Of a stretch of DNA of 64,000 bases, positions 5,971-62,898 are shown one piece after another (position 1 is the stretch's first letter; the number at the start of each line of letters is the position of its first letter). This DNA comes from Edaphochlamys debaryana. Taxonomy: Eukaryota > Chlorophyta > Chlorophyceae > Chlamydomonadales. Position numbers and translations under genes: made by a program. The notes under the pieces are model-generated. The model worked only from the letters and a program-made list of their open reading frames with translations, did no database searches and had not been told where the DNA came from. Where the stretch lies: assembly GCA_016858145.1 (NCBI GenBank), contig JAEHOE010000094.1, positions 124,001-188,000 on the forward strand, written 5' to 3'.

Positions 5971-7618
5971 ATGGCTGAAGCTCCAGCTCCAGCTCCAGCT
6001 CGTCATAACCCCGAACCCGATATCAACATAGAGACGAAACACCTGACGGTAGGGCAGCGCATGCTTTGAACGAATGCCCAATTATGGGCGCTGCGCGACT
6101 TGCAACGAGCGTCTGCCTGCTTGGTGCGACAGGAGCTCAACGAGCAGAAGGATTCGCTGCTCTCCAAGGTCACCACCCTGAAGAAGGAGCTCCAGGACTG
6201 GCGCACAAAGCTGGACACGCAAGTGAAGACGTATCGCACGGTAAGGCGCGACGTGCTGGGTGCTGGGGTGGAATAGTACTCAGCAAGGTCTCATCCCCGG
6301 GCAATACCCCCATGTCCACACCATCCTTCCCCACCCGCTTGCAGGAAGTCGGCGAGCTGCGGAAAACGCTGAACACGGAGGTGGAGGGGCTACGTGCAGA
6401 GTTTATGGAGCTGAAGACAGCCCTCAAGCAGCAGCTAGAGCTGACGGCAGGGTTGGCATCGCAGGTGGGCAAGTTGCGGGTTGGCGAGGGCAGAGGTGGC
6501 GACGGGGCGGGAAAGCACAGGGGAGCTCACACAGTGCGTGACCGCCTGTCTCCCGCCTCCGCTCCGGCTCCATGCGCTGTCAGGCAAGGGTCTGACTGCG
6601 CGGGTACCGCTGCCTGGCTTCGTGTGTGACACACAGCATGGGCGGCACCTTGGGACCTCTGCGAAACGGCGTGCCGTGGCCTGTTGGTTGGGGCTTTGCT
6701 GCTCGTGCCTATTCCCCTTTCGCTGCTCCCGTTGCTTCCTTCGCCCCCGTACCGATCATCTCACCTAAGGGGCTTTTGTGTTGCTGAAGGCAGGGGCTCT
6801 CCTACCGGGCTTCAGGCGGGTCCCTGCTGGCGTGGACAGGGCCCGGCCTGACGACCCCGAGCCAGCGGTTTCTGCAGCAGTGCCATGCATTCCAAGGGTG
6901 ATCATCGGAAACCGGGGGAGGGCTGCTTCTGCGCAAAACAAAGGATGGACCCCGCCTGCTCCACGTGCAACGCGCTCAAACTCTGTTTTGGGGCTGAGAA
7001 CTGTGGGAATCTAGGATCAGCGCGGGCCCGAGGCGGGATCTCGTTCGGCACCGATTGAGCTGGTGCCTGGTCCTCCATGGACTCCAATGCGCTCGGGGGC
7101 GCACAGTGCCTCTCGGGGAGCAGAGGCAGGGGGCAGCGTGATTGGAAGCCGGGAGCTGCGCCCGGCAGTCCCAAGCTGGTCTGATTTCGCTTGGATGGGG
7201 CGTGGGCGATGCATATGGCGCTCGGGCCGGGCGCCAATCCTTCCCCTTCGGATCTGGGTCGGAGCGCCATGTTTAATCGGCTCATGCACGTGCCTCCTTT
7301 CACGATGCGGGCCGTGGCCTCGCAACGTCTGCCCCGTCCCGCGCCGTCCCTCCCTCTACTCCCTCGGCCTTGTGCCTCGCACGTCTCACCACAAACCTCT
7401 TCCCTCCAGTGATTGCCCGCGTGCCCTCACCCCGCCCTGGTTTCCATGCCTGTCGTACCCTCCCCTCAGTGCACCCCGTATCACCTTCACCTTCACCTTC
7501 ACCCCAAAGACCAACCCACCCTCCCGCTGCATTGCCCCACCCCCATCCCCTCTGCCCTCTGCAGGAGGTCAACGACGCGGAGGCCCGACTGGCGCAGATC
7601 TCGGGGCAGCAGCAATGA
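5971..7618 (+). CDS. Small conserved-looking coiled-coil protein
   Basis: Four exons all join in phase 0: 5971-6048, 6133-6240, 6345-6464 and 7565-7618, giving about 119 residues. The N-terminus (MAEAPAPAPARHNPEPDIN) is followed by a continuous charged heptad-rich helix with blocks such as KDSLLSKVTTLKKELQDW, KTYRTEVGELRKTLNTEV and ELKTALKQQLELTAG, and it ends ARLAQISGQQQ. No catalytic motif, membrane segment or signal peptide is visible. The regular splice sites and lack of composition bias make the gene believable. I do not recognise the family with confidence; a cytoskeletal, cilium-related or adaptor role is only a guess. The last intron is about 1.1 kb and could hide a further short exon. 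The final exon end, including the stop codon, is copied about 167 bp downstream. Confidence 0.7.
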
Positions 7619-7790
7619 GGCCGGAGGGCGGAGGGCCGGAGGGCGGAGGGCCGGAGGGCAGAGGGCCGGACGGCCCTGCGAAGCATGGCCAAGCAAGGCA
7701 TAGGCAGGGAGCTGGCGGAAAGAAGCGAGCAACAGCGGAGATCGGCGGGCGGTGGAGCGCCACAGATCTCGGGGCAGCAGCAGTGAGGGG
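7593..7790. repeat. Duplicated terminal exon end plus GGCCGGAGGGCGGA tandem
   Basis: The coding end of the coiled-coil gene (AGATCTCGGGGCAGCAGCA plus the stop, 7597-7618) recurs with one change at 7764-7787. Between the copies lies a short array of a 14-15 bp GGCCGGAGGGCGGA unit (7619-7672). This is the first example in the window of the exon-end duplications described in the findings. Confidence 0.85.
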
Positions 7791-8404
7791 ACGGAGCTGG
7801 CGGACGTAGTCAAGCAAGAGAGCAGCTCGGAGGTGGGGCGGTGGAGTCCGGCGGCTTGACACGGAGAGGTGGATGCCCGTACCGAGGCGTGGGTGCGGAA
7901 GCGCGGCGTGTCGTGGTGATATGCATTGAGCACGGGTTTGGAACGGGAATCGCCGTTCCCAGTTAGAGCATGAGCAGCATTGGAAATCGGCACAACGAGC
8001 TAGATAGCAAGGGGACGGGCGGCTGAGTGGCCGCGAGGTTGGAGCGCATGTATGGCAACAGGGTTAGGCCTGGGCCGGTGGATGGTGCGGTACGGTGCGG
8101 TACGGGACACTTGCGGCTTGGTCCTGCTTGCGGCCTGGTTCGGCACGCACTTGTGATGAGTGCTGGGGACTTTGGACGATAGGCCTTGAGGGCAGCTGGG
8201 GCCCTGCTGCAGGCGTGCGCACCGGTGTAACCGGTGGCACCAGGCAAAGTGTTGAGGCGCGCACCTGTTTGTATGTAAGGAGGGATTCTATGACCTATCC
8301 TAGATAGGATCCTACGACTGCAGCAGCAGTCGGGGCAGGGGCCACTGCCGCCGCCGCAGTGGATGCGGGCGACGGCAGGCACTACCGTGGGGGCTACGGT
8401 GGGG

Positions 8405-10223: not shown

Positions 10224-10425
10224 GCGTAACCCAGTCGTCGGTGCTTACATTCCCGCCCCCTGGGGTCAAAGCGCTGAACGAAAGATGGGGCCAAGTAATC
10301 CAGTCACGGTAGATGCGGGCATGCATGGTTCGTAGCAGTGGGAAGTCAGCGCCGTGCAGGGCCAAACAGTGCTGCTGAATAAAGGCCGCTTGCGGTACAG
10401 CCACAGGTAGGGCAAGCATGTGCAG

Positions 10426-10595
10426 GTACTCCAGGTACTCCAGGTACTCCAGGTACTCCAGGTACTCCAGGTACTCCAGGTACTCCAGGTACTCCAGGTA
10501 CTCCAGGTACTCCAGGTACTCCAGGTACTGCAGGTACTCCAGGTACTGCAGGTACTCCAGGTACTCCAGCTACTCCAGCTACTCCAGCTACTCCA
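10426..10595. repeat. TACTCCAGG minisatellite
   Basis: About 19 copies of the 9-bp unit TACTCCAGG, with GTACTGCAG and CTACTCCAG variants toward the end. Four more copies occur at 10673-10711, inside the adjacent inverted-repeat element. Confidence 0.97.
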
Positions 10596-10599
10596 GGTA

Positions 10600-11499: not shown

Positions 11500-12400
11500 C
11501 ACCCCCCCCGCCGCCGCCTGCCCTTCCCCCCCCCCGCGCCACCTTGTAGCGCTGCTGCTGGAGGTCCGTGCCCGAGGGGACCTGAGGGAGGCGGCAGGGG
11601 AAAGGGGGAGGCGTTGAAGAGGTGTAAGGGAGGTGGGTTTGGGGGGGGCGGTCGGTGGCGACCTTGGAATGCTGCTGGAGATCGGTTCCCGAGGCGACCT
11701 GGGGTGGGGCGAAAAGCGGATCTGATTAGAAGAGTGGTAGAGGGGCCGTGGTGATAGATGACGAAGTGCTGCTTGCAGTTCTGTGCCAGAGGCAACATGG
11801 GGTTGGGGGGCGAAGATAGAGGAGAGAGGGATGTTTCCAAGCGCGCCCGCACCCCGGCCACCCCCTCCCCCTTCCCCTTGCAGGCCCTCACAGGCATACA
11901 TGGCTGACCCCTTCGCCATTTTCCCTCCTCCAAGCTCCCACTCCCACCGGCACCGGCCCGTGGCCTCCCCCTTGGCCGCTCTGTACTCCCCCTTGGCCCC
12001 ACCCCCGAAACCTCTGCCCCATACGCCCCCCACCCACCCACCCCACGCACACTGGCGGCCCAGCACTGCGCAAGTCCCTTGCCCCCCCCAACCCCACCCC
12101 TCATGCCCAGCCCCCACCTCCATCTCTCCACCCACCCGCACCCCACCTGCACCCAGCCCAGAGCCGTGTCTTTGCCTGAACGGCGCTGCCCTGGCCCGAG
12201 GGCGGCCCGCGACCCCGGCACCCAAGTCCCCACCGCCCCGCATGCATCCACACGAGGGCCTCCCCCCTTGAACGCCACATCCCCCGCCCATCCCTCTGAC
12301 CCCAAGCCCCAAGCAAGCTCCCCACCTGCTGCACCCAGCCCAGAGCCGTGCCGCTGTCTGACTCCGCCGGGGCCTGTCCCTTGGCCGCGACCTACAGGTA
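11500..12400 (-). other. Repeated exon-like modules of an unresolved minus-strand gene
   Basis: Three related segments at about 11541-11590, 11661-11705 and 11757-11815 read on the minus strand as (V)PSGTDLQQQRYK, VASGTDLQQHSK and ASGTELQ. Two of them are preceded by CAG and followed by GTGG or similar. Two further related segments at about 12143-12200 and 12325-12391 share the coding-like end ALGWVQ before CAG. The pattern resembles tandemly duplicated small exons, but I cannot build a continuous gene. The rest of 11.1-13.1 kb is G- or C-rich low-complexity sequence. Confidence 0.3.
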
Positions 12401-20200: not shown

Positions 20201-23200
20201 GGCGACCAGGACCCCCCCCACCCAGTGTTTCTATCTTCCGTGACGAGGGTTTCGAAAATCCCAGATCTTTTCCGGTCGTCTGGGCCAAGGTGTTCGTTGG
20301 CGGACAGATCTTTTTGTGACCAGGACCCCCCCACCCTCTCACGTGACACCGCGCTGCAGTCTCCGAAAGCGTCCGCGACGGCGATAGTAGCAGCACCGGA
20401 GGCGGCCGTGGAGTCCAGCAGTGACAGCAGTCCGTCTCCAAGGCTTGCGTTGGTGAACACCGCAGAGGGGGCTGTCGAGAACATGATCTGCGGGCGCGCG
20501 CGGCAGGGAACTTAAATTCCTAGGCTCAAAGAGGGATCCGTGGCTCGCAGCTAACCGACTCAACCAACCCAGCCCACCCGACCTGAACACCCAACTCAAA
20601 GCACCAACCAGAACCACACCTGCCCACGCAACGCCCTCACCCAGCGCGTCAGCAGGTCGCCTAGCGGCGTGCCCCGTGCCCCCCACCCACCCACGCGTCC
20701 CAAAACACACACGTTTTCCCCCCTCCTTCCACCTGCCTATTCCCCCCAGCCCCACCTGGCCGCTGGCTCCTACCCAGCGCCTCAGCAGGTCCCCTAGGGG
20801 CGAGCCCACTGCGGGTCTGGAGGCGGGGTCGGCGAGGATGGCCATGAGCCTCAGCAGGCCTGTGGGGGGCGGGGGAGGGGGGGAAAGGGCGGGGGGACAC
20901 GTGTGTGTTTTGGGACGCGTGGGTGCGTGGGTGGGCGGGGTCCGCGCGGGTGGCCATGAGCCTCAGCAAGCCTGTGGGGGGCGGGGGAAGGGGCGGGGGG
21001 ATAGGGCTGGGGGACAGCGAGGGCAAAGGCGGTGACGCACGTCACCCCCGGTGATAAACGCGAGGCGGGATTGAGCTAGTAGCGCTGTGAACGAACTACC
21101 GTTGTCAAAGTGTGGTATCCGCACTCGTAGCACGTCCTTACGGGGGTTCGCCGTGAGGGTGCTGTTGCTGACCTCGAGTGCGACCTCAGTTCCGTTGGCC
21201 GCGGCGCCAGCGGCATCCACCCGGCTCATGCACCTGTGCCGTACGGCGTACGGCAGGCGGATGGCGCGCAACCGGTGAGGGCAGTGGCGTCGTCAAAATC
21301 CACCTATCCGTTCGCTCTCAGGTTTGTCAGCATGCGGTTGAACTTCAGCACGGACCGGCACGTCTCGTCTGGTACCGGTACCTCCCCACCTGTCCCGCCA
21401 GTCCTTGAGCGAGGAAGTCGCTGCCAGCGCCGCCGCCGCCGCGGGCCCCAGCGATCCACCCGGCGGCGCCGCCAGCGCTGCCGCCAGCACCCCCTCCAGC
21501 TGCAGCGCGACCAGCCGCACCGCCGCCGCCGCCGGGCCCGCCGGGGCCCCGCTGGGCCCGCCTACCGACGGCGCCGCCGCGCCGCCGCCGCGGAAGAGCC
21601 GCTTCAGCGCGCCGTCCATGCGCAGGGCCACGGGCGGGCCCACGGCAGGCCCAACCAGCATGGACCTGTACGACACCGGCAGGCCGTCCTGCATGGCACA
21701 TACGCGGTGGGGCACATACGCGGTTGGCACGTGGTGAGCATGCATGACTAGACGTACGGCGGGGCTCCCGACCTGCTCTTCATATGCTGCATGATACCGG
21801 ACCCCCAACCATATATAACGGAACAGCCCACGCACGAACGGCACAGCAGCAGCCGGGGTGCGCCCGACGGCCAGCCAGCTCTCGCGCCCCCCCCCCCACA
21901 CAGACCCGGGCAGCCCCCCGCACCGCTGGCCAGTTGTCCGGCGTGAGAGTTACGTTGTGGAGCAGCAATATGACCCGGGTGCCGCCGGTCCAGGCCTCAT
22001 CCTGCATGCATGCGGCCGGGGTCACAGGCAGGCACCAATTATCAAGCGAGCTCGTTTTGACGTACCGCTGATTACTACTACCGTACTAGGAGTGACCGCA
22101 GTCAGAGCCCATGCATGCGAGCAAGGTTTGAGGTGGGTGCGATGTACAGGCGAGGGAGGGAGGGGGGCAGGCGGCCGGCCCCGCCCCATGTGGGGGCACC
22201 AACGCACCGCCGCCATCCCACCTGTAAAAGAGAGCGCAGCGCTGATGCGTTGGCCGCCAGGGCCACGCTGGCCGGCGGCAGCGGGGCCGCCGCCAGGTCC
22301 TGCGGCTCGGAGGGATCAGGAGGGGGGGGGCGGTGTGGACAGGTGTGTGTGGGGTGGGGGGGCGGTGTGGAAAGGGGGGCGGCGGTTGAATGTGGTGGAA
22401 CCAGAAGGCTGTCAATCTGATCTTAACCCAACCGCCCACCTGCAGCTTTGACAGCGAAAAGCGCAGCGGCCACGGGGAGGTCAGGAGGGGGGCTCCTCCC
22501 GACGTGTTAAAACCGACCACAAAATCGCTCAGCGGGCTATTGCGCGTGACGGTGCCGTCATCGTCGATAATCTGCGGTACATGTACGGCATGTACGGCAT
22601 TTAGCACCGACCAGGGACGGGTTCAGGCATGCGGCCTCCATCCCTCCATGCCCCCCCCCCCACCTCCCCACATGCATTCTAGGCACACGTGCACACACTG
22701 ACACGTGGCGGGCGGCCGCCGTTCGCACCGTTGTGCCTAACCCGTGTGTCAGCTGGAACAGCCAGTCGGCGCTTGCGGCCACAGCGGGATCTGGGGAGCG
22801 CATACGACTAGCCCAAACCGCAACGTAGCTGAGGGGGTGGGGGGGTGGAAGGGTGGGGGGTGGGGGTGGGGATGGGCACCGCGACGTCTGGGTTTGAGGA
22901 GCGCACTATGCAGCGAGGGCACGGCGGCACTGGTCCAGATGATGGAGGCCGAAGGGTTTTTGCATGCATACATGCAGGACGCTGGTCATCAGACATGGCT
23001 CGAGGGCCGTACGTCGCACTGTGCACTCACCTGATAGTGTCCGGGGTGACAGCTTTGGACCTCAACTGCACCACCTGGAGACCGCCGCTCCCGCTCCTGT
23101 GCATACACGTAGTGACGTGAAGTAAGTGTCAAGTGAGTGCAGGCGATGCCGCCCAGGCCGCCCCTGCCACCCCGGCCCCTGCTACCCCGGCCCATCACCA

Positions 23201-38905: not shown

Positions 38906-38948
38906 GACTGCCGCTAGCTCAGCTGCAGTGGCAACAGTCGAGATCAGC

Positions 38949-43400: not shown

Positions 43401-46318
43401 GTCGATGGCGCTGCGCCCCAGGTTGCGCTCAGCAAACATGAAGGCCATCTCAGCGCACAACGTGTCACGGGCGGTCATACCGGACAAGACAAAGCACTGG
43501 GGGGAGGGGGGTGGAGAGGGGGGTTTGGATGTGGCATCTGGCTGAGCCGTCACTCTAGGCAGCCTCTCCCCACTTCCAGGATCCGCTCCCCTTCTCCCCA
43601 ACCCCCCCTGAGCCTTGCCTTATGACCGCCCTTGCGCCACCTCCCCATCCTCGCCCCCCCCCCCCTTCTCACCCGCCTGGGTCCAGGAGATCCCTCAGCA
43701 GAGGAGGACAACCCCTTCACGTCCCCTTCTACATCCCCCTTCTCCTTCCTCCCCCCCTGCCCTTGCCTCCCCCCCCCTCTTGCCTCCCTCCCCCATCTTG
43801 CCTCCCCTGCCCCACCCCCTCACCTCCAGGTCCAGGAAGGCCCTGAGCCAGGGGTGGGTCACGTGCTTATCCACCAGGGCGGAGAAGGGGCCCTGGGGGA
43901 GCGGGTGGGAGGTTGAAGGATTCAGTCCAGGCCATCAGTCCCAGGCCCGACGAGCGTGATACAGGTCGGGACCAGCCGTACACATCTCCGTGTCATTGCT
44001 CCCCTGGCCTTTCCCTTCCCCCTGTCGGCTCTGCCCCCCTCATCCCCCGGTCAGGTCTCTCCCCCCCCTCCCCCTGTCAGGTCCCTTCCCCTCCCCCCCC
44101 CTCACCGTCAGCAGGGGCGCCACGAAGGCCGTCTGCAGGGCCTGTGGGCCCAGGTACCGCGCCGCAGTGAGGCCCAGGCCCAGGTCCGAGCGAATGGCGG
44201 CGGCGGGGAACAGACCGGCGGCAACCTGTGCGTGTGTTTGTGTGTGTGTGCGGGGGGGTCATGGCGGCCGTTCCAAGCGTGAGGGTGAGGGAGGTGAGCG
44301 GGGCCCCGCTCCTGCGCACCCCCTCCTCACCTGAAGCGACCAGGGCCCGCCCCTCCCCCATCCACCTGAATCTCCCCCTTGCCCAACTCCATTACTCAGC
44401 CCCACCCCCTTGGTCATCCTCCCCTCCTCCCCACCTGTAGCGGCTTCATGGCCGCTTCCAGCGCCCTCCCCTCCACATCCCCCCTGCCCTCCCCCATAAG
44501 CCATCCGCCCCCTCCCCCATTAGTCAGCCCCTCTCCGCTTAGTCATCCTGTCTCTTCCCGTACCTGTAGCGGCTTCATGGCCGCATCCAGCGCCCGCCAC
44601 TGCCTCAGGGCCTCGGCCCCCCCCCGGGCTGAGATCATGGCCTCATAGGCCCCCAGGTTGGCCACAGTGGGGAAGGAGCCGCCCTCAGGGGGATAGACGA
44701 TCCACCTGTGTGTGAGCGGCAGGGGGGGGGGGGGAAGGGCAAGTGGGCACTGAATCCGGCTCTCCACCTCGCAGGCCTACCCTTCGGTATCAGACCCAAT
44801 CCAAAGGCAACGGACCGGACTTCTCCGCTTGTGATGAGCCATTTCATCAGTGTGCTCCCTACTGCCCTGTCGTACAGCTATGACCCCACCTGTCGTACTG
44901 CTTCGTCTCTACGCTCTCCCCAACCGCGTCCAGCACCTGAGGGGGCGGAGGTCCGGAGGGGGTCTGGGGGTCAGCCTTCCTATTTGGCCCAGTCTCTTCA
45001 ATTAGGTGGCTGGTCATAGCCCCGGGCATCGTATCCAGCTGGTTCGCTGCTCGTCACCCTGTACCCCGGCAACCCCCATCCGTGTCAACATCCGTACCAG
45101 TACGGCCGCACATGCCGTACAGGTGCCGTACACGCACGCACCTGCTTGAGCGGGTTTGGCGAGCCGTCCCCCGGCGGCCCGCCCACCCCCAGGAAGAAGG
45201 ATGGGCCCGCATCGAACTTGTAACCCGCCACCTCGAACGAGTGGGCAGCACCACCTGGGGGGTGGAGTGGGGGGGGGAGGGGAGAGGGGGGGGAGAAGGG
45301 GGGGCCGGGGGGAAGAATTGGGAAGGGAAGGTTGGACCCGCGTGGTTGTAACCGGCCACCTCGAAAGAGTGGGCAGCACCACCTGGGGGGTGGAGTGGGG
45401 GGGGGAGGGGAGGAATTGAGGACAGCGTAGTGGCTTGGGGGGGTAACCCGCCACCTAGAGAGAGTGGGCGGCGCCGCTTAGGGGTATGAGGAGGGTGGGC
45501 AGGAGCAGGGAAGAGTGAAGGGGGTCGGGGGCTACCGGTGATGCGGAACCCGCCCCGCAACCCCCGCTGCACAACTTCAAGCCAGCCCCCAACGAACCAA
45601 CTCCCCAACGAACTCAACCACCAACCCGGCAGGTAGTGCGACTCGCACACAGTCACCCGGTAGCCGTACTTGGCCAGGAGCGCGGCACAGCACAGGCCTG
45701 AGGGGGAGGCGGGGGGGGAAGAGGGGGCGGTGTTGCTAGGGGCAGCTTTGATGCAGTTGCATGGCGAGGGGCAGGCCGCAGAGCTGTGCAGCACAGCCTT
45801 GTGGGGAGGGGGGCAGAGGAGTTGTCAAGTTGAGGGGATTCGCGGGGGGGGGGCGCAGGCCTCAGGCGCAGGCCGCTTCGGCCAAGCACCCATTCTTGCA
45901 AGGGGTGTGTGGAAAGCGGGATTTGCCAAGGAGCCTCCCGTGATGGCTGGGCGGGGGCGACGGATGGCACCGGTGGCTGGGCTGACGGATGGCGCCAAAC
46001 CCTGCGGCGCACAATATCCCATCCCTCACCGCCAATTCCAGAACCAATAACAACGTAGTCAGTTTCGTGGCTGCGGTCGCCTCCAGAGCCGCTTGTGCTC
46101 GGCGGCTCCTCCTCGAGCGTGAGCTTAGGCTCCACAGTCGTCGCAGCGGCTGCATGGCCAACTACGTTCGAGCGCGCCTCACGGCCAGCGTTTCCGCCGA
46201 GAGCTGCTCTGCACACAGCTCGTGTACGCGAGGGCGGCGAGGGCTGCAGCACCGTCGACGGCGCCGCGCGCCCGCTGACGCGCGTTGAGCCCGCGACTGT
46301 TCGAGTGGAGGCCTGCAT
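40429..46318 (-). CDS. CRTISO: Carotenoid isomerase (prolycopene isomerase, CRTISO family)
   Basis: A plastid FAD enzyme that converts poly-cis lycopene precursors to all-trans lycopene. Eighteen exons join in phase from the ATG at 46318 to the stop at 40429: 46030-46318, 45626-45697, 45142-45254, 44890-44936, 44564-44705, 44106-44225, 43824-43892, 43395-43496, 42972-43119, 42650-42786, 42345-42455, 42119-42173, 41886-41958, 41698-41746, 41458-41529, 41009-41071, 40712-40775 and 40429-40547; 614 residues, typical for the family. The first roughly 85 residues are a plastid transit peptide rich in Ala, Ser and Arg. Then the Rossmann FAD motif VVIGSGIGGLCCAALLAKYG, YKFDAGPSFFLG, SAIDYPMGGSRAIIDALIRG, GVVSNASVWDT, and the C-terminal FAD-contact end LTVCGDSCMPGIGVPAAAAS. 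A CRTISO-like paralog with another substrate cannot be excluded. At least four exon ends are duplicated within its introns. Confidence 0.93.
43281..43449. repeat. Tandem copy of a carotenoid isomerase exon end with donor
   Basis: About 60 bp (CTCACCGGGTAGTCGATGGC to CATGAAGGCCAT) occur at 43284-43342 and 43391-43449 with a single difference, period 107 bp. The copy at 43391 continues into the full exon; the other is in the following intron and keeps the donor. Confidence 0.95.
44432..44600. repeat. Second carotenoid isomerase exon-end duplication
   Basis: The sequence CCTGTAGCGGCTTCATGGCC plus GCNTCCAGCGCCC occurs at 44434-44468 and 44563-44597, period about 129 bp. The real exon end is at 44564; the downstream copy keeps CAG and a GT donor. 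Confidence 0.9.
45218..45470. repeat. Three copies of a carotenoid isomerase exon start with acceptor
   Basis: The acceptor plus about 40 bp of exon (minus strand GGTGCTGCCCACTCGTTCGA and on) occurs at about 45215-45262 (real), 45348-45395 (one codon changed) and 45445-45480 (more diverged). Here the 5' side of an exon is multiplied, not the 3' side. Confidence 0.85.
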
Positions 46319-49468: not shown

Positions 49469-52400
49469 TCACGATGCCGGCGGCGGCGGCGGCGGCGGTT
49501 GGCAGCAGTGGCGGTTGACGAAGTCCACAACCGCCGCCAGCGTCTCGCTCGGACGCTCGTCCATGGGCAGGTGGCCACAACCGTCGAGTACGACAAGCTC
49601 GGTCACGAGTCCTGTTGGAGGGGGCGGGAGGGAGGATGGATTAAAGCACCGGGGATATGGTGGTGGGGTGGACCTGCCGGGGCGAGGGCCCGGCGGGTGC
49701 GGCCAAGGAAGTGGCCGGTGGTGGGGCGTTGATTCTGCCCCGCCCCCTTAACCCCGAAGTGGGGCACGCACGGGTTCGCCCGTTGCGTAGCTATTATTGT
49801 TATTATTGGTGGTGGGGTGGGTGGGGAAGGGAGAGGCATGTAAAGGAGTCATGAGCGGCCCGGTAACTCCCGCCTCCGCTCGGCACCCTTGACACCCCTC
49901 GCGTGCGACCAAGCGCCCCTCCCTTTGCCCCCTTTCCCCCCACCTGCAGCCCAACTCGTCCACACCAGCTACCGCACCCCCTGCCCCCCGTTTCCACCCT
50001 TCCGGCAGTCAGACAGTCAGCCTCACCTAGCCAGGACTACCCCAGCCCCCTTGGCATTAACCCCGTGCCGGCCAAGCACATCGTCCATTCTACTCCCCCT
50101 CCCCTCTTTCCCCCCACCTTCTCTCCTTCCGACAGCCTCACCTGGCCCCCGCTTCCTCAGTGCCGCCGCCACCGCCTCCCCCGCGGATACGGGGACCACT
50201 CTGTCCGCGGCACCGTGAAGGATCAGGACGGGACAGGAGAGGGAGGAGAGGGGGGGAGGGGGGGAGGCCACCTGTCAGGGAGGGTAGGGAGGAGGGTGGG
50301 GGGAGGGAGGGTAAAGGGCGAGGCCAGTTCCCCGGGTGCAAGCCGCTCCGCTGACTGGCCCTGCCCTGGCCCCGTCACTCAGAGCGTTCAGCCAATCAGC
50401 GCCCTCACGCCCTACCCTCCCCTTGCATCGAGGTTTGTGTAGGACTGCAGGTCTCCCCTTCCCCCTACCCCAGGCCTCCCCTAGGCCTCCCCTTACAACC
50501 CTGCTGCCCTTGTCCTCAGGGCCCTCACCGCCCCCTTCCCCTTGTCCTCATCCCCTCCCCCCCCAGCCCCCCTCCCCCCGCCCCCCCCCCAGCCCCCCTC
50601 CCCCCTCCCCCTCCCCCCTCCCCCCCTCCCCCTCCCCCTCACATCGATGTTCCTGAATGACTGCAGCGCGCCCACGTCCCAGTCCCGGGCGCGGAGGGGC
50701 AGCAGGTTGCCCTCAATCACCTGGGGGTGGGGGTGGGGGTGGGGGTGGGGGTGGGGGTGGGGGTGGGGGTGGGGGTGGGGGTGGGGGTGGGGGTGGGGGT
50801 GGGGGTGGGGGTGGGGGTGGGGGTGGGGCATCCGGGGTGCGAGAGGGTGGGGGGGAGGGGCCAGTGAAGGCGGAGAGAGGAGGCCGTCGATCGAGGTGAC
50901 CCGCCAGGCAGCACGCAGGGGCAGAGCAACCAACGCACATAACTCGCGGTCCCATCCCGCCACCCCCTGCCACCCCCTGCCGCCCACCCCTCCTGCCCCC
51001 TTGCGCCCACAGCCTCCCCCCTCTCTCCAGCGGATCGCTCTCGTCCGCCGACACCCCCAACCGCCCCCCCTCCCCCCCCCCATCCCCTCCCTGTTCTACC
51101 CCCTACCCGGTCCTCAGCACCCTCTTCGCCCCCTTCTCCCCACCTCCCGGGGCAGGTTGCTCTCATCCGCGTACACACCCAGCCGCCCCGCCTCCACCTC
51201 GGCCCGCCGCCGCCGGATCTGGATGGGGGCAGGGGCAGTAGGGCCGGCCCGTGAGAAAAGACAGCGGTACAGGTGCTCGCTTGCGGCATGGCACAGCACA
51301 GCCCATTGTACGGTACAGTACGGTACTGTACGGCACCGTACGATACCTCCCCTGATCTTACCTGTCGCCGGATGTACTGGGTGCCGGGGCCGTCCGCTGC
51401 GGGGCGGGCAGTGCGGGGGTGGGTGGGTGGGCAGAGGTGAGGGGAGGGCAGGGGTGAGGGCAGGTTCGTGGCCAGACCAGGGGCTAAGCGGGTTCGCCTA
51501 CTGCACTCCCCATCCCCCTGCACCTTGCATCCGCTTTCAGCCTCCTCTTCCTCTCGTCCATCCACGCCCTTTCCCCTCCCCCCACCCACTTCCTCACCCT
51601 TCACCTTTCACCCTTCACCTCCTTCACCCATCACACACACCCGCCCCCCCCCTCATGCCATCCTCTCAGCCCCCCCCCCCCCCTCCATTCCCCCCCTTCA
51701 TCTCTCACCCCCCAGCAGCGCCCGCACCCAGGCGAACCGCAGGAGCTGCCCCAGATCCGCCCTCGCCAGGAAGCCCCTTTGGGAAAACGAGGATGGGGTA
51801 CGGGGGGGAGCAGCGGAGTGTCAGGGGTCATGTGGGTGGCAGTTCATGTCGGCGATTCACCGCCGCGGGCAGGGCATGGGGAGTGAGAAGCACCCCGCGT
51901 CATTCAAGCACCATACTCCTCCACTGCCCCCCTTATCTCCCTCCCCGGCCCTCACCGCTCCTCCGTGGACACAGCGGGGCACACCAGGACCAGACCCACC
52001 CCACGCCCCACGCGTCCCAAAACACACAGGTTTTCCCCTACCCCCCCCCCCTCACCGCTCCTCCGTGGACACAGCGGGGCACACCAGGACCAGCCCCGCC
52101 ACCTGCTCGGGGTGCCTGGGGTGGGGTGGGGGTGAAAGGGGGGAGGGGAGAAGGGAGGGAGGCTGAGAGGGGGTGGCTGGGAGGGGGAAGGGAAGGGAAG
52201 GGGGGGTACGGAGCTCAGAGGGCAGCGGGCGGAGGTCCGGGTCGTCAAAGGCACCAGGGTACCAGGGCACTAAGCCTCAGGGGTTGCGTGCTCACGACCC
52301 CCGGCCGCCGCCTCCCCACCTCCTGAGAACCTCATTGGAGACTATTGGAAGACGCCCCAACACGCCTCTAAGACACAGTCAATCCCCCCAACCCTTCACC

Positions 52401-55400
52401 ACCAGATGACATGCGGGAGCTCTCCCCGAGGGAGCCCCTCCATCCCCACCCCTCGCTGCCCACCTCATCGCCGCCTCCACCGCCACGGAGGCCCCCGCCG
52501 AGTGCCCCACCAGCACCGCCCGGGGGGGGGAGGAGGAGGAGGAGGTGAAGGGGTCGCAGGAGGAGCGGGAGATGGAGGACGAGAAGGATGCGGATGAGGG
52601 CGGCAGCAGGGCGTCCAACAGGCCCAGGGCCAGCTCGGCTCCTGCAGGGGGGGGGGGAGGGCGGGGTGGTGCTTGCGGAGGGGCAGAGTGGTGCCTGACG
52701 TCGAGGGAAGTCTAAGGCGCAAGGCGTAAGGTACAAGGCGAACGGTATCAAGAAGCATCGGTTGGTGGAGCAGGAAGCATACGGAGGACATACGGGCCAG
52801 TCGAGCTCGTGCCCAGCCTGCAAAGAGAGGAATTCAAAACACACTCCTCTCCCATAAGCGACCGAGACGAGCCCACACACGCGGGCTACGGGCTTTGGGC
52901 CGGGCGGCCGGCACCTTGGAGCTGTCAATCACACACGCCTTTCCCATGCTTTCTGCCTGACATCACACTCGCGTTCACCTCCCCGCAGCGTGTATGGGTT
53001 GTCCTCCGCCTCCGTCTCCCCCTGCCGTACCACGGGACGAGCGCTCAGGCCGTACGGGGGCCTGGGGAGTGTGGGGGGGGGGCGGAGGGACGGGGTGGGG
53101 TGGGGTTGGGGTTGGTGGCGAGTGGTGGCAATTGGTGGAGGGCGCAGCGGCAGAGGGGCCGGGGGAGGAGTCCACCTGCCGCACGCAGGCTCGAAGAAGG
53201 CGAGGTAGGATCCCGGGGCCCATTGTACGATAATTGTACGAGATTGTACGATAATTGTACGAAGACACATAGTACGACACTGTCGGCACCCACCTGTCAT
53301 ACGCGATGACCCTGCAGCCCCCCGTGCCGGGGCTGACGTGGGCGGCCAGTCCGCCCATGACGAGCCGCCTGGGGGGGGAGGGGGGGGGGGGGGAGATCGT
53401 TCGACTTGGGGGGGGGGACCAATGCGTCCCCTCAGCCGTGGCAACGTCCCTTCCGCCTACTAACAACCACCCCCGAGCTCCCGGCAAAAGACGCCCTCCC
53501 GCTCAGCTTCAAAAACCCCCCGCTCCCCCCCTCCCCCTCACCAGTTAAAGGTGGAGCCGTTGAGTCCGTGCATCAGCAACAGCGTGGGCGGGGGATCTGC
53601 AATCGCAACAGCGCCCTCCGACGACGAAGACGCAGCAGCAGATCCAGATCCAAATCCAGATCCAAACCCGCGGTCCCCTGCGCCCGGCGGCTCCCGGACC
53701 TGGCCGGGCAGGAGCAAGGGGGGTGAGGAGCAGCGAGGGTTGAGCTCGCGGGTGTCAAAGTATGCCGTACCAGATGCTTGCCGTACCTTGTAGTGCAGCC
53801 GTACGCCCCGTACGGTTACGAATCGGGAATCGGGGTCTGCCAGCTGGTCGGGTGCGACCGTGTCTGGGGGAGGATGTGGGGCGGGGTGGCCCAGGCACAG
53901 GAAGCGGCAGGTCAAGTCACGAGCACACGTATACGGTAGCGGACACGCATTGCCCCAGGACCGCAGCGGTGGACCGCCCAGCAAGGGCCTAGGTCTCCAT
54001 GGAGGCTTTGGGCAGCACCTAGCCTCAGTTTACCCTTGTCCTGCCGTCGTGCCCGACCCCACCCCCCCCACCCCACCCGACCCCAACGTCAGCAGAGGTG
54101 AACGCCGCAGCCCACCCCACCCCAGCCACTCCCAAGCCCCAAGCCCCCTCCCCTCCGATCCCACCCGTCAGGGGCGGGGGCGGCCCCATCAGCAGCGGGG
54201 CCACCAGGTCCGTGATCCCGGGGAGGGCCTCCTTCCGGAACTGCAGGGGGAATCGGGGAAAGGCAAAGGGCGGAAGGGGCGATGCACCCAGCATGGACGA
54301 TTGCATGGGGTACCAGCATTGCTCCAGGGACGGCAGCCTGCCGCGCCTGGCCGAAGCCCCACACCCCTCCCCCAACCCGGCTCAAACCCGGGCCGCCGGA
54401 GCCGCCGCAAGCGAGGACGCCCCCGGGATCTGAGTCATCACGAGGGTTTCGTGGTGCTGTTCTAGCCAACACCCCATAACTGCCAAGAAAGGCCCGGTCC
54501 AAAGGGACACCGCGGGGTCATGGGAAGGCGACCCCCCACCGGAGCCCCCACCTGTGCCGCTAGGGCCGACACAAGGGAGGACGAGAGCTCCGCGCCGCTG
54601 GCCCGGTCGCTGCGGTTGGGGCGGTTGGGCGGCGGCGGTTGGGCGGCGGTGGTTGAGGCGGTTGCGGGGGCCGAGGCGGTTGCGGAGGCTGGGCGAGGGC
54701 CGGGGGCGGGGGAGGAGAGGGGACGGCGGGCGGGCGCGGCGGCAGTGGGCCCAGCGGTGGGGCCCGGGGTCGAGGCAGAGGGGGTGGATGAGGAGGTGGT
54801 GGGGGAAGTGGTGGGGGTGACAGGGGGGTGCCGCGCAGAGGAGGCGGCTGCGAGGCTCGGGCGCCTGTGCGAGGCCGGGAAGAGTGTGGGAGGGGAGGAG
54901 GTTTGAGGGGGGGAGGGGGGGGGGCACGGCAGGCAGCCTGGGCATTCAAGGGGGCTGGGCACGCGGGCCTGCCTCCCCTTGGGATACCGGTAGGCATCGG
55001 AGGTAGCATCAACCCGACTGGTTGGGAACCCCCAGCATTCCACCGGCTGGGTTTGCGCTGGGCCCGAGGGCAAGCACCTGCCGGCCGGCCTCGAGTGCCT
55101 CCCCGTCGAGTTAGGACTCGCCCCGCTCGCCCCGCTCACACCAGCAGGGCTGACGGCCCCCAAGCCCATGTCTGCTATCAGATAGCATAGTAGGGGGAAA
55201 CTGCTCACCCGATAGCTCCCCCGCCGCGTGAGGCCAGGGCCCGAGACGCAAGCGCTGGCCGCGGCACCGGCCACGACTCCGACAGGTGTTGTGGGGGGCC
55301 CCGCTGGTGCCAGGGCGTTCTTTGCACAGGCGAGGCGCTGCCGCCTACCGGAGCTGATATCGTGTGCATCGTCTTGATGTGGTTGTGTCGCGAGGAGAGG

Positions 55401-55822: not shown

Positions 55823-58800
55823 ATGGCCTACCTTCGGCTGCTGCGCCCCTCGGACCTGCGGACTATTCAGGTGCGCTGATCGGCGTCTGTTTGCCACTGT
55901 GGTATGGTCGCCCGTGCCCGCGCCGAGGTCCCACCGCACCGTGTCCATCCTTCCCTTGTTCGACCTCATCCACCCCTACAGAATGCGTACGCGCAGCTGT
56001 TCGGACTGCCCGCGCCCTCGCGACGAGCGCTGGAGGAGGCGCTGGGGTCCACACGGTGAGGGGAGGGGGCAGGGGGGGGACAGGGGGGGGGGGGGGCAAG
56101 GCAGGGGGGGGGCCCATTGCCAGTCCCCGGGCACATCAGTGCCCTACTCGTGTCTCCACGCCTCTCCCCCCTGTCCATCAGCCCAGTCGGCGCCCTTCGC
56201 TCCTCCTCCTCCCCTCTCCCCCACCCACCCCGCCCCCCCAGCTGGCTGTCCATCGCGGCCGTGTCCCCCGACCCCGACTCCCCCTCCCGCGAGGACTACA
56301 TGGGCGGTTTCTGCCTGAGCGCGGTGGCGACCGTGGAGGCGTTCACGAGCGACATGGTGGGGGTGGGGGTTGGAAATGAAGTATGGGCCTGGATCAGGGG
56401 TGTGGTTGACTGATGAAGGGCTGAAGGACTGAGGACTGGTGAGGGCTGGAGTACGAGCTTGTTGTTGGAAGGGAAGCTGTCAGCAGGGGATGGAGGGGTG
56501 GGGCTTCTGCCTGAGCACATATGCTGTACAGCCTTTTGTAGGAAGGCAAGTAGCTAGCAGGGGATGGAGGGTTGGGGGATCTGGTGGAGCGCGGCGGCAA
56601 CGTCGGAGGCAACCACGAGCGCCACGCCGGGCAGTGTGATGTGGGGGAGAGGGATGAGGAGGAAACGGAGGAATAGTGGGAGGGGATGACGGGGACTGCA
56701 GGGGCCCTTGCTGACCCCATGAGACCCCTGTTCCCCCCCATCCCTCGACCTCTACCCCCCCCCCTCAGGGCTACTACCCCGAAGGCGCCCCCTCCTCCCC
56801 CTCTGCCGGCACGGGGGGCCCCGTGGGCGTTCAGGCCACGGGGCTGGAGGCGGTGGGGCTGCCGCAGGCGGAGCGGGCGGTCAACATATGCCTGCTGGTG
56901 GGTGGCTGGTGGCGGGTGGTTGGTGGGGTTGTGAGTGGTTGGAAGAGTGAGTGGACGGGGCGCCGGCGTTGGGGGTTCAACCGGGCCCGTTCAACCCACG
57001 CCCAGCGCCCTCCCCTCCCTCCCCTCCTGAACACCTCCGCCCCCAAAAGGATATGCTGCCCTCCCACCGGCGTCAGGGCCTGGCCCCACCTCCCCCAGCA
57101 TCAGTCGGGACAAGCCCTTCCCCGCCCATACCCACGCGTCCCAAAACACACACGCTTTTTCCCCTTGCCCCCTACTCCACCCGTCCCCCCCCTCAGGGCG
57201 TGCTGCCCACCTACCGGCGGCGGGGCCTGGCCCGACTGATGCTGAAGCAGGTGCTGGACAGCGCCCGCACGGCGAGGTGGGGGGGGAAGGGGAAGGGAGG
57301 GGGAGGGAGGGGGGAAACGTGTGTGTTTCAAGACGCGTGGGAGGGGGGGAGAGGGGGGTTGGTGCTGAAGCAGGTGCTGGACAGCGCCCGCACGGCCAGG
57401 TGGGGGGGGGGAGGGGGAGGGAGAGGGAGGGGGGAAACGTGTGTGTTTCAAGACGCGTGGGAGGGGGGGAGAGGGGGTTTGGTGCTGAAGCAGGTGCTGG
57501 ACAGCGCCCGCACGGCCAGGTGGGGGGGGGAGGGGGAGGGAGAGGGAGGGGGGAAACGTGTGTGTTTCAAGACGCGTGGGAGAGAGGGAGAGGGGGTTTG
57601 GTGCTGAAGCAGGTGCTGGACAGCGCCCGCACGGCGAGGTGTGGGGGGGGAGGGGGAGGGAGAGGGAGGGGGGAAACGTGTGTGTTTCAAGACGCGTGGG
57701 AGGGGGGGAGAGGGGGTTTGGTGCTGAAGCAGGGGCTGGACAGCATGCGTATGGGAGAGGGAAGTAAGATTGGCAAGTGAGGAGGGCGAAGAGAGGGGCA
57801 AACAGAGCAGGCAAGGCCGTCTCCTCACCATTCCTCCCTGCGGCCTCCCTCTCACCGCCCCCCCCCCCAACCCCTTCCAGCCCGCCTATCTGGGACCTGA
57901 GATCCCTCGTTATCTTCCCCCTCACCCTTACCCCTCCCCTCCCCTCTTCCAGCGCCTGCGCCGTCTTCCTGCACGTGCGCCCCTGCAACGCCGCCGCCCT
58001 CGCGCTGTACCGCTCCTTCGGGTTCGTGCCCACGGCCCTCATCCCCGGCTACTACGACGTGCCCCTGCCGCCGGCGCCCGAGGCAAACGGTGAGCGGGGA
58101 GAGAGGGAGGGAAGATGGAGGGGGCGGGGGGGAAGGGGGCGAGGGCTTGGGTTCGTGCCAGGCTGGATACACAGGCGGGCCGCGCCCCGAGCACGTGAGG
58201 TCGTAGCAAGCAAAGGAAGTGAGGAAGGTTGGGCTGCACAATTGCATGGCGAGGTGGGGGAGCCGCCACGTTGCGCAGTTTGCCCCCGACTGATGCCCAC
58301 CGCATTCTACTGTCAGGGGTTAGGCTCCTTTGCTTTTTTCCTGCCCATGGCATGGGGCCGCCAAGGCGGACGACCTCTATCCCACATAACTATCCTTCCC
58401 TCTCGCCGATTAATGATCCCATCCCATCCCAAGTATATCCCTCCTATCCCAAGTATATCCTTTCTATCCTATCCCATCCACCACAGGGACCGCCAAGGCG
58501 GACGACCCAGCCGCCCCGCCCCTGCCCGCGGGCGGCGACGCGGTTCTCCTGGTGCTGCCGCTGACGCCGGTGGCGGCGGCGGCGGTGGCGGCGGCGGCAG
58601 AGGCGGCGGCGCATCGGGTGGCGGCGGCGGCGGCAGCGGAGCGGGCGCTGGCGCGTGAGTGTGAAGTGGGGAGGGGTTGTGGGGGGCGCGGATGGGTGGA
58701 GGAGACGACGCAGAGAGGGTGTAGGGGCCAACCCGCCCCGGGCTCGCTGGCTGCTGCTCCTCCTCTTTCTTCTCTATCCAATTCGTATCACCCCCAACCC

Positions 58801-60535: not shown

Positions 60536-62898
60536 ATGGCGCGCCCCAGCAGCGCCGCTGCCGCGGCGGCTCTGTGCCTCGCCCTGATGGCCGTGGTCGT
60601 CGCTGCCGGGAGCTCCGCGGCTGCGGAGGCTGCCACCGGCGGTGCGGCGCGGCGCGACCTCTTCCCACGCCCCGACGCCTCGGGTGAGTGAGGAGGAGAG
60701 GGGGGAGGGCAGGGGGCCGTTTGGTGTCGTGGGGGCTGAAACGGAGGGGGGGAGGGCAGTGACAGACCCGTGTCTTACCGTGCCGACGGTCTTGGCGTGT
60801 CGTGGCGTGGCGCGAAGGTGGGCAGCTTAGGTGGGCAGCCTAGGCCTTCCCAGCCTGACGCTGCCTTTGACCCTGCCAATGCCCAGGGGGGCCCCCCGGC
60901 AGACCCCACGGATCGGGGGGCCCCCCTTGGTATTGGCATGGACGATGGCAGCGTAACTGACGGACTGTATTCCACACCCCCCCTCCCGCTGCAGACCCTT
61001 ACGATGCCCGTTCTGCACCCCTTCTCCCGACCCACTTCCACCCTCTCCCCACAAGGCTGCCTCAACCTGTCTCCCCGCAGAGTCATCCGCCGCCCCCCTC
61101 CTCCCTTCTCCGGGCCCCTTCCCCGGGCCCCTTCCCCCTCCCTCCCCCTCTCATACCTCGGGGCCCTGAAGTCCCAGGAGAGTTTCGTCCGCCACGTGGC
61201 TTAGGTCTAGGCTCTCATCTCGTCATCCCTACTCCCTACTACATCTCGTCATCCCTACTCCCTACTACATCTCGTCATCCCTACTGAATCCCTCCCCCGC
61301 CCCTAGCCCGAGGAACCCGCCGTCCGCTCTTTCGCTGAGGCTATGGCGTGTGTGGGCATCACAACCGCCTCGCCCCAACCTCCCCTCACCCCCGAGGGAC
61401 AGAGTTGTTGGCTCAGTGGCTGAGGCCATGGGGTTGTTGACAGACCCCCTCCCCCCCTCTCCCTCCCTCCCTCCCCATCCCCCTCCCTGCCCATCCATCG
61501 AGGTGTTGCCATGAGCCCCCTTTCCCCTTCTCCCTCTCCGCCCCCCTCCCTCCCCCTTACAGACTTCGAGGCCCTCTCCCCCGAGGACCGTGTCGTCCGC
61601 TCCGTGGCTGAGGCCATGGCGGGGGTGGCGGCGGGGGCGGGCGCAGGGGCGGAGGCGGCGGGGGCCGCGCTGCAGTCGGACCTGGGGCTGGGCCCAGTGC
61701 TGTGCGACTCGCTGGACTGCCCGTCCTTCCGGGTGAGAGGGGGAGAGGAGGGGAGGGGGGAAGGAGGGAGGAAAGTTTTAGGGGAGGGGAGGGGGACGAA
61801 TTGCGGCAAGGTGGAAGGATGCTGCAGCAGAGGAAAAGGGGTAGGGGAGGGCCGGTAGGGGAGCCCCCACGGCCTTCCCTAACGCGCCCCGCCAAATGCG
61901 GCCTTCCCCCTTTTACCCCCTCCCCCTGTCAGGTCCTGGACCGCTACCCGGGGGGAGTGGAGCTGCGGCGGTACGACCCAGGTGAGGAGGGGGTGGTGCC
62001 TGAGGATTCACCCTGCTCCTCCTCTCCCGCTCTCCCCTCTACCCCACGCTCCCTCCTTCTCAGCCCCACCCACCCACCTCAATCTTATTGATGTCTCCCC
62101 CTGGTCCCGCTTTCGCCCCCCAGCTTCCCTTCCTGGTCCCCCACCCCACCCCGATCTCACCCTGATCTCTCCCTCTTGCCAACCCCCCTCTTGCCCCCCC
62201 CCCCAGCTTCCTTCACCTCCACCGTGCTGTCCCTGGACGATCAGTGCCTGGAGCGGTCCGCGGTCATCGGGTTCCACGTGAGTATTGCATTAGTAACATC
62301 AGCATGGGGGAAGGAGGGGAGAGAGGGGGTATCGGTACGTACAGAAAAGGGTATGCGAATTGGGATTGAGGGGTATGGGCGCGTGCGTGGCAGTTCTCGC
62401 CACCACTACCGCCCCCTGCAAGCCCCTCGACGTATGCCATCTCTGCCCCTGGCCCGTCACACTCCGACCCACATCGCCCCTGCACCTCCACCCCCACCCC
62501 CCGTTTCCCCTCCCTCCCCCCAGCGCCTGCTCAAGTACAATCTGGGGGACAACGAGGACAGCAAGAAGGTGGGGGGGGAGGGAGATCTGAGATTGGTGTG
62601 CGGGGCGTACTCTGTCCTGGGCACACTGCACGCCATGCTATGCATCTAACACTCTCTCCAGATCCTACACCCAATCCCCCCCTGGTACCCCTGATCCCGT
62701 TGATCTCGCCCCCAAGTCAGCCCTCATGCGTCCTCCCCCTGCCCCCCTTCCCTCTACGTGCACCCCCTCCCCCCCCAGCTCCCTATGACCGCCCCCGTGC
62801 TGTACGGCATCGACATCGACCGGAAGACGAGCAGTCGCCGTGAGCTGGTGTTCCGGGAGCGCTTCAGCGTCTCGTTCTTCGTGCCCTTCCGCTACCAG
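60536..62898 (+). CDS. SOUL-family heme-binding protein, 3' end unresolved
   Basis: Six exons in phase: 60536-60683, 61563-61732, 61933-61981, 62207-62277, 62524-62568 and 62779-62898. The start (MARPSSAAAAAALCLALMAV) is a signal or lumen-type targeting sequence. The SOUL/HEBP domain follows: CPSFRVLDRYPGGVELRRYD, then FTSTVLSLDDQCLERSAVIG, RLLKYNLGDNEDSKKLPMTA, PVLYGIDID, RFSVSFFVPFRYQ. Plant and algal members bind tetrapyrroles. The last exon ends at a GTACGG donor, but I find no following exon with the usual proline-rich segment and final strands. Instead there is a minisatellite and a foldback. The gene may be truncated, or the 3' exons may be diverged. Diverged copies of the second exon's start lie at 61309-61430. 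Confidence 0.85.
61309..61625 (+). repeat. Three copies of a SOUL-gene exon start
   Basis: The real exon segment CCCGAGGACCGTGTCGTCCG to GAGGCCATGGCG (about 61581-61622) has diverged copies at about 61309-61350 and 61391-61432, inside the preceding intron. Confidence 0.8.

Follow-up and report, generated by a model that had tools for sequence, protein, structure and literature searches.

Duplicated exon ends and short oriented cassettes at intron edges in Edaphochlamys debaryana

Exon-end copies in the window and in sampled loci

The window, a stretch of 64,000 nucleotides from E. debaryana, carries predicted genes, among them a carotenoid isomerase gene, in which the end of an exon recurs with its splice site inside the adjoining intron. 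Our analysis confirms these duplicated exon ends, which had been described in a first-pass annotation of the window. Self-BLAST of the window and of 20 sampled 10-kb loci (264 kb together; local pairs at an offset of 30-400 bp, fixed search space, E<=1e-3) found 72 local pairs, and five order-1 shuffles of the same 264 kb gave 0, 0, 0, 0 and 0 pairs. Thirteen of the 16 places named in the first-pass annotation were recovered at E<=1e-3, while the other three (7595/7763, 28621/28764 and 51037/51159) fall below this cut-off and are present as weaker local alignments; a further two places, 12138/12317 and 23277/23409, had not been listed. As described, the copies lie on both donor and acceptor sides and include the splice sites. 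The array at 57.24 kb is also present, although Tandem Repeats Finder counts 4.2 copies instead of the five reported. Gene edges are predictions of a self-trained HMM, compared with annotation for one gene only, the carotenoid isomerase, whose 17-exon model exactly matches one continuous part of the annotated protein P0001. The features of the window are listed here (copy pairs from self-BLAST unless stated otherwise; cassettes M, N and O are described in the next section).

7595-7632 / 7763-7804, plus strand: weak, short exon-end copy pair (38 vs 42 bp; local alignment)
12138-12179 / 12317-12361, minus strand: exon-end copy pair
20639-20674 / 20772-20807, minus strand: donor-side copy pair with cassette M in between
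20694-20710, minus strand: cassette M core, outward, exon edge 45 bp away
20822-20899 / 20934-21016, minus strand: acceptor-side copy pair, the repeats separated by a 34-bp insert with M
20903-20919, plus strand: cassette M core, outward, antisense to the gene, exon edge 43 bp away
23277-23321 / 23409-23453, minus strand: exon-end copy pair
24240-24302 / 24399-24457, minus strand: donor-side copy pair
28621-28698 / 28764-28839, minus strand: weak copy pair (78 vs 76 bp; local alignment)
30396-30443 / 30505-30554, minus strand: acceptor-side copy pair
31233-31305 / 31363-31432, minus strand: donor-side copy pair, spacer with a decayed M
34008-34035, minus strand: cassette O at an intron edge, no self-BLAST copy pair
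41315-41373 / 41419-41479, minus strand: donor-side copy pair, carotenoid isomerase
42805-42829, plus strand: cassette O at an intron edge (acceptor side), no self-BLAST copy pair
43276-43343 / 43383-43449, minus strand: donor-side copy pair, 97% identical, cassette N in between
43360-43378, minus strand: cassette N core
44389-44495 / 44517-44625, minus strand: donor-side copy pair
45196-45284 / 45327-45412 / 45443-45524, minus strand: acceptor-side triple
51037-51076 / 51159-51198, minus strand: weak copy pair (40 bp; local alignment); its intronic copy overlaps, among the matches listed, a 27-bp match to the spacer at L018 3924
51943-52000 / 52043-52100, minus strand: donor-side copy pair with M in between
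52011-52027, minus strand: cassette M core, exon edge 28 bp away
53490-53514, minus strand: cassette O at an intron edge, no self-BLAST copy pair
57011-57089 / 57160-57236, plus strand: acceptor-side copy pair, spacer with M and a 14-bp inverted copy of local sequence
57135-57151, minus strand: cassette M core, outward, exon edge 45 bp away
57237-57744, plus strand: donor-side array, its 120-bp unit made up of exon end, G tract and M and present in about 4.2 copies (Tandem Repeats Finder and self-BLAST)
57321-57337, plus strand: cassette M core of array unit 1; the other M cores of the array start at 57441, 57560 and 57680
61307-61355 / 61383-61431 / 61572-61628, plus strand: acceptor-side copies

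By predicted gene edges, the 72 pairs divide into 40 that join an exon end to an intronic copy, five within introns, four within exons and 23 in intergenic sequence. Exon-edge pairs make up 40 of the 45 edge-or-intron-only events, compared to about 70% expected when the unit lengths of the pairs are placed randomly on predicted introns, and ascertainment contributes to this difference, since masking and decay on both sides affect copies confined to introns. The edge excess of the copies alone is therefore modest and little above geometry, so that the comparison of junctions with other positions, which the first-pass annotation had set as its own test, comes out only weakly in its favor. The accompanying statement that almost every gene is affected describes this window well (19 pairs in 110 introns) but does not extend to the sampled loci, 15 of which, out of 20 with 188 introns in total, contain no exon-end pair; at locus L023, nine such pairs occur in 16 introns. 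Exon-end copying is thus patchy and does not reach the density of the window genome-wide. G richness as the cause of the patchiness was rejected, since it predicts neither edges (p 0.21) nor the loci that carry copies (p 0.69).

The arrangement of the copies is mostly not the head-to-tail one implied by a plain tandem duplication: a spacer of at least 14 bp separates 34 of the 40 exon-end pairs of the 264-kb sample (in six of these 34 an intermediate copy is passed over), and the M-bearing spacers hold a dispersed, oriented cassette. Identity within the 40 sampled pairs ranges from 70 to 97% and reaches 100% over 38 bp elsewhere, in line with the variable divergence noted before. The copies do supply extra splice dinucleotides, which are kept in 24 of 32 testable intronic copies, and copy-bearing introns are longer (332 vs 205 bp), a difference that is partly definitional because a longer intron has room for a copy. 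The suggestion of intron gain did not hold in the one gene with an annotated protein. At all four places in the carotenoid isomerase the exon-proximal copy is used, and the second copy, which would be exonic after intron gain by tandem duplication, is intronic and absent from the protein, so that the copy there merely lengthens the intron.

Cassette M and other recurrent inserts

M is a recurrent cassette of about 30 bp with 524 matches in the genome, compared to 17 with the reversed pattern. Its conservation fades at about -12 and +21 and covers about 33 bp, and it has ends that look fixed, forms subfamilies and is dispersed over many contigs. After removal of seven matches near a stretch end and 27 with the same context from 112 raw matches, 78 sites were kept, all of which lie in predicted introns and none in a predicted exon or intergenic stretch. 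M sits at a median of 43 bp from the exon edge, at donors and acceptors, oriented behind a G tract and nearly always pointing outward; the five M-bearing introns of the window measure 240-676 bp. An exon edge lies no more than 90 bp away at 61 sites, of which 53 were called outward and eight inward. For seven of the eight inward calls an exon lies behind the cassette as well, and in at least four of these (L024, L027, L063 and L075) the exon ahead is an intronic copy that the model misread as an exon. The eighth inward call is an M in third position within an array in L065. We rejected M as an RNA-level splicing signal, as it is sense at donors and antisense at acceptors. Inspection of the M listing by eye revealed no compensating change that would speak for a hairpin under selection, and a viral source of M was rejected because a degenerate 20-mer had 0 matches in a set of viral contigs, from which records near this genome may have been left out.

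Cassette and copy are strongly associated. In the 264-kb sample M occurs in 8 of 35 duplicated intron ends compared to 3 of 733 other ends; conversely, a copy is found at 8 of 11 M ends and 27 of 757 others (Fisher p 1.2e-9). The remaining 27 of the 35 duplicated ends lack M, and for most of them no recurrent filler was found among the matches listed. To describe the sites themselves, we left out 18 of the 78, chiefly later units of arrays, whose nearest exon edge is more than 75 bp away; this leaves 60 exon-proximal sites from 47 loci (32 donor, 28 acceptor). At 32 of these the insert is flanked by a significant direct repeat of the adjacent exon end (above the 99.5% level of a cross-locus null without paralogues), with a median of 72.5 bp and a span of 38-132 bp. 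Three outcomes can be distinguished: a cassette without a detectable copy (28 sites), a copy with one cassette (18) and an array (14). In the 18 single-cassette cases 3-46 bp separate the end of the left homology from the M core, and the right copy begins 18-62 bp past the core start; the shortest inserts among the 32 repeat-bearing sites are 24-27 bp, and the copies around M inserts are 76% to 100% identical. At L050 they are 100% identical, but the copy stops inside the exon.

Other cassettes besides M exist. Cassette N, found in the M-less pair at 43276, recurs at C94:285424 and C179:118978, and copies of cassette O end at different points (by eye) and had no repeat around them at the five sites tested. 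In addition, the genome holds a conventional, variably truncated repeat, Q, with 418 matches (control 0); by eye, six of the ten places displayed show flanking repeats 10-13 bp long.

Origin of the copies and cassettes

We give about even chances to the explanation that exon-end copies and spacers, in a subset with a cassette, go back to long staggered breaks at intron edges, the repair of which captured filler. Two nicks on opposite strands, one in a G-rich stretch about 27-67 bp into the intron and the other about 16-84 bp into the exon, would leave long 5' overhangs, and fill-in at both ends would double the stretch between the nicks together with the splice site. If the G-rich 3' end were extended on a template before end joining, the two copies would end up with filler between them; M, N and similar cassettes may be fillers that were captured repeatedly. 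A blunt break would yield a cassette without a copy, and arrays would result from later unequal exchange. We infer the break, the nicks and the repair intermediates, and we favor staggered-break repair because of the geometry of the M sites, the association of M with copies, the polarity, the three outcomes, the spacers, the N filler and the longer introns. The duplicated ends without M, the M sites without a repeat and the modest edge preference of the copies alone count against it. So does the rarity of inverted local copies, which template switching should leave: copies of at least 12 bp occur at 1 of 60 M sites (null 0.26%) and of at least 10 bp at 3 of 60 (null 1.6%), and we rejected them as a general signature. 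A strand-symmetric break also needs an extra reason for the fixed orientation of the cassette, for which the G tract is a candidate, but G richness predicts neither the edges nor the copy-bearing loci; and the model gives no account of the strong local clustering of copies.

A possible though less probable explanation treats the cassettes M, N and O as tiny mobile elements. A nick in the G-rich strand would prime their reverse transcription at the target, and the exon-end repeat would be a target-site duplication of unusual length. The hundreds of scattered copies, their fixed ends and subfamilies, their orientation behind the G tract and the differing end points of O would fit such elements; Q shows that elements of this kind have spread here, and R9 reportedly has a very long target duplication. 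Non-LTR elements are variably truncated at one end, as O and Q appear by eye, but M has fixed-looking ends and the same length at the sites seen, without 5' truncation. A target duplication, as such elements leave, is seen at 32 of the 60 M sites, although it is unusually long. O lacks a repeat at its tested sites, and both arrays and cassette-free copies would require a second process. M does not resemble a MITE: MITEs end in terminal inverted repeats, and their target duplication is short and of fixed length, whereas the repeats at M are long and variable and its profile contains no long terminal repeat (by eye).

We consider it unlikely that the copies are plain tandem duplications of exon-edge units, produced by slippage or unequal exchange, in which a pre-existing intron-edge cassette marks the end of the unit. 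Such an origin would fit the arrays in which every unit carries its cassette (57237-57744, L033 and L069; the 14 array sites) and the cassettes without a detectable copy, but at the 18 single-cassette sites M stands after the first copy and is missing after the second, despite identity of up to 98% (L071). Together with the 34 of 40 non-adjacent pairs, this led us to reject plain tandem duplication as a general account. Quite improbable, too, is that local duplications are random and only those straddling an exon edge survive and stay visible. Random placement alone puts 70% of tolerated events on an edge, and masking and decay of intron-only copies would hide others; however, 40 of 45 were observed, no kept M site is exonic or intergenic, and the dispersed cassette, its distance and its orientation are left unaccounted for. 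For cassette-free copies, such an untargeted origin may apply.

Very little probability attaches to the introns being inserted transposons (introners) with M as terminal inverted repeat. M does point outward at the donor and acceptor ends of different introns, but of 11 sampled introns with a loose M match none carries M at both ends, and only 5 of 365 same-intron end comparisons exceed the 99.5% null (1.8 expected), with one clear inverted repeat and the rest G-rich, so that introners with terminal repeats were rejected. Near-identity from splice site to splice site is also absent, as M spans about 33 bp of introns of 240-676 bp, and repeats of 38-132 bp are not short target duplications. Although assemblies are error-prone at tandem structures, we practically dismiss an assembly artefact, as the copies differ within the 40 sampled pairs and the cassette recurs across many contigs.

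Known systems and implications

Literature searches, whose coverage excluded most subscription journals, found neither the exon-end copies of E. debaryana nor any paper joining Edaphochlamys with introners, and the available portion of the genome paper (PMC8226300) does not mention the copies. The closest parallel is Daphnia pulex, where newly gained introns formed at staggered double-strand breaks (PMC4202315). As far as the available text goes, the inserts there are likewise bracketed by direct repeats of the neighboring exon end, the events fall into a staggered and a blunt class, and secondary events lengthen introns. In contrast, the repeats in Daphnia measure 4-12 bp, compared to the median of 72.5 bp at M sites, the Daphnia introns are new whereas the intron is an existing one in the gene checked here, and a recurrent oriented cassette is not described in that portion of the paper. 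Introners likewise form dispersed short families in introns, but they create introns with a short or no target duplication (PMC9860276, as available), whereas M is about 30 bp within a longer intron and at one end only; Chlamydomonas is absent from the main text of that paper. Tandem repeats are enriched near intron-exon junctions of the related algae Chlamydomonas reinhardtii and Volvox carteri, similar to the situation in E. debaryana, although the available text treats tandem repeats in general and does not describe exon-end copies or cassettes (PMC3887541). Direct repeats close to intron borders have also been reported at 4-30 bp (mean 11.4), but, judging from part of the text, between the 5' and 3' borders of an intron, unlike here (PMC11782384). 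Intron gain by tandem genomic duplication has been described (PMC4974935, in part). As in E. debaryana, a stretch with splice-like sequence is doubled; here, however, the copy is intronic, and the gene checked uses the exon-proximal site. In that process the duplication is said to bound the new intron. R9 also has a long target-site duplication, reportedly of 126 bp, but R9 is said to be rDNA-specific, whereas the insert in E. debaryana is tiny, occupies many intron edges and has a variable duplication.

Intron growth and the origin of spare splice sites are open questions, and E. debaryana, a relative of Chlamydomonas, offers events that can be counted and ordered, with copies at M from 76% to 100% identical and an insert in hundreds of places. 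A further reading, to which we give clearly less than even chances, sees the exon edges of E. debaryana as places where a new class of selfish sequence lands: cassettes some 30 bp long without gene, splice site or terminal repeat, copied in one orientation behind a G-rich intron edge, which duplicate the exon end and its splice site, lengthen introns stepwise and stock spare splice sites. If the mechanism holds, break repair, mobile sequence and intron growth would be united in one process, which in E. debaryana would make introns longer.

Exon-end copies and their distribution

The first-pass annotation had listed 16 places in the window at which an exon end with its splice site recurs inside the adjoining intron, and our alignments support these duplications, 13 of the 16 being significant and the remaining three weaker. 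Its further suggestion that such copies occur in almost every gene describes the window, which holds 19 pairs, but does not extend to the sample as a whole, in which the distribution is patchy: the 20 other loci, a convenience sample taken entirely from 50-60 kb of large contigs, yielded 21 pairs confined to five loci, and the 15 loci without any exon-end pair contain 188 of the 388 predicted introns. Together these 21 sequences (264 kb) gave 72 local pairs, 40 of which pair an exon end with a copy in the neighboring intron (the others are intron-intron, 5; exon-exon, 4; and intergenic, 23), and five shuffles of the sequence produced no local pairs. The exon-end pairs have a median offset of 131.5 bp, with 27 of 40 lying between 99 and 160 bp. 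In the comparison of junctions with other positions that the annotation proposed, copies straddle an edge in 40 of 45 cases; geometry alone places 70% of tolerated events there, and junction preference on its own is therefore not strong evidence for targeting.

Exon edges were predicted with an HMM self-trained on the 264 kb, except in the carotenoid isomerase gene (40.4-45.7 kb), whose 517-residue model has the E. debaryana protein HYH03_013758 as its best match and is an exact substring of it. Predicted introns have a median length of 210.5 bp, and a median of 198 bp is given for this species in PMC8226300. Introns with a copy are longer (median 332 bp, n=29) than the rest (205 bp, n=359), a difference that is partly definitional. 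The splice dinucleotide is kept in 24 of 32 testable intronic copies and not in the other eight. The carotenoid isomerase gene has four copy places, and in each case it is the exon-proximal site that underlies the annotated protein.

Other tandem repeats seen in the window
5492-5607: simple tandem array, perfect GGTCAA x19
10423-10599: simple tandem array, CAGGTACTC x20 (96%)
38947-39092: 71-bp tandem pair, ~94% identical, outside predicted genes
63095-63232: 18/36-bp array of GCATGAAG

Spacers and the cassette M

The aligned copies are separated by at least 14 bp in 34 of the 40 exon-end pairs, although these gaps overstate the inserts because low-complexity masking shortens the alignments. 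Six of the 34 skip an intermediate copy, and their exclusion leaves 28 of 34.

Pairs that skip an intermediate copy
45220/45443, window
57237/57599, window
61307/61580, window
3972, sampled locus L008
2581, sampled locus L023
3592/3945, sampled locus L023

The copy gaps of several unrelated genes share a cassette of about 30 bp, M (profile consensus GGGGGAAAGCGTGTGTGTTTTGGGACGCGTGGGG). An M 20-mer occurs without mismatch at 15 places in 142 Mb, of which four are in the window, and its reversed pattern at no place; a 21-mer searched at a tolerance of three mismatches gives 524 matches against 17 for the reversed pattern, and two subfamily 19-mers give 22 and 24 exact matches, with no control matches. 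For the analysis of position, M sites were selected by motif and not at random, from the window, the sampled loci and motif-match places (15 exact-match places, several overlapping; one place from the 21-mer matches; 20 stretches covering all 22 places of one subfamily; and 19 stretches plus L028 covering all 24 of the other), and 112 raw matches were reduced to 78 unique sites. All 78 lie in predicted introns; many of the stretches are shorter than 1 kb, a length at which the gene model is less certain. A predicted exon edge lies behind M at 63 sites (donor 34, acceptor 29), at a median distance of 43 bp (5th-95th percentile 27-67). Among the 61 sites with an edge within 90 bp (17 others have none), M is called as reading outward, from the exon edge into the intron, in 53 and inward in eight; an exon also lies behind seven of the latter, the displays indicating that in at least four the model mistook an intronic copy for the exon ahead, and the eighth site belongs to an array, in which it is the third M. 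Loose M matches occur in 11 introns of the 264-kb sample, none of which carries M at both ends.

At 32 of 60 exon-proximal M sites a flanking repeat exceeds the 99.5% level of the cross-locus null, with aligned spans of 38-132 bp (median 72.5), 76-100% identity and exonic parts of 16-84 bp; at the other 28 no repeat reached this level, and short resemblances are visible at several. A second M lies beyond in 14 of the 32, forming an array, and the remaining 18 have one M only. At these single-M sites copy homology breaks off 3-46 bp ahead of the M core and restarts 18-62 bp past the core start. For example, at 20822-21016 a 34-bp insert separates two occurrences of a 78-bp stretch that includes the exon end and splice site, and no M follows the second occurrence; this is the pattern of an insertion between long direct repeats and contradicts tandem duplication of an M-containing unit. 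Exon ends at L028 and L033, on contigs C81 and C130, are near-identical and apparently paralogous; the copies and M are present at both loci, one of which has two M units and the other five, and the copies may predate the duplication of the gene. The same 3-kb locus L028 holds a second array (182-792), with six AAAGCGTGTGTGTTTTGGG matches about 118 bp apart.

Other recurrent sequences

M is absent from 27 of 35 duplicated intron ends, and we found a recurrent filler for few of the cassette-free copies. In the pair at 43276, whose copies are 97% identical, the spacer holds another cassette, N, and has matches at two other places. A search for N gave 534 matches and its control 56, so that about a tenth are expected by chance, and part of the loose matches lie inside predicted exons; at L002 the N core and a predicted donor edge are 16 bp apart, and at L003 the predicted exon extends into N. 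Arrays of N matches spaced 112-132 bp apart were seen at C161:96742-97547, C2:1345306 and C179:36613. An all-against-all comparison of 768 intron ends gave 34 outward shared pairs against 15 in the opposite direction (E<1e-3), several in both directions tracing to a local duplication at locus L021 or to low-complexity sequence. This comparison yielded cassette O (207 matches, control 0), which reads outward and lies no more than about 45 bp from a predicted exon edge at the four sites in the sample and five further ones (L041, L079-L082); no flanking repeat was found around O at the five sites tested. Intron ends of different loci also share the short sequence TGATCGCTTGAACGAATTGGAAACC (L018 and L023) and a 70-bp match (L016 and L023). 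A further repeat, Q (GTGTTCAGGGCTGCTCGTGTAAA...; 418 matches, control 0; seen at L083-L088, L009, L012, L072, L074 and L078), is longer and partly intergenic. One of its ends is fixed and the other varies, and at six of ten displayed places inspection by eye shows 10-13 bp repeats on its flanks; it looks like an ordinary SINE/LINE-like retroelement repeat.

Proposed origin of the copies

We favor, as a proposed mechanism, an origin of the copies in long staggered breaks at intron edges. Fill-in of such a break would duplicate the stretch between the nicks, and a G-rich 3' end extended on a template before joining would leave filler in a fixed orientation. Intron edges in the 264-kb sample are G-rich outward on both sides (donor-side G falls from 0.59 to 0.34 across 100 bp, and the acceptor side is similar), so that the average intron begins G-rich and ends C-rich; richness in G is no predictor of exon-end copies. 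For the M class the leading alternative is target-primed retro-insertion accompanied by a very long duplication of the target, which would better explain the fixed ends of M. The staggered-break model leaves the local clustering of copies unaccounted for, and it accommodates copies whether or not they carry M, M without a copy, and the polarity. It follows the same logic as that described for Daphnia neointrons, where the scale is 4-12 bp (PMC4202315).
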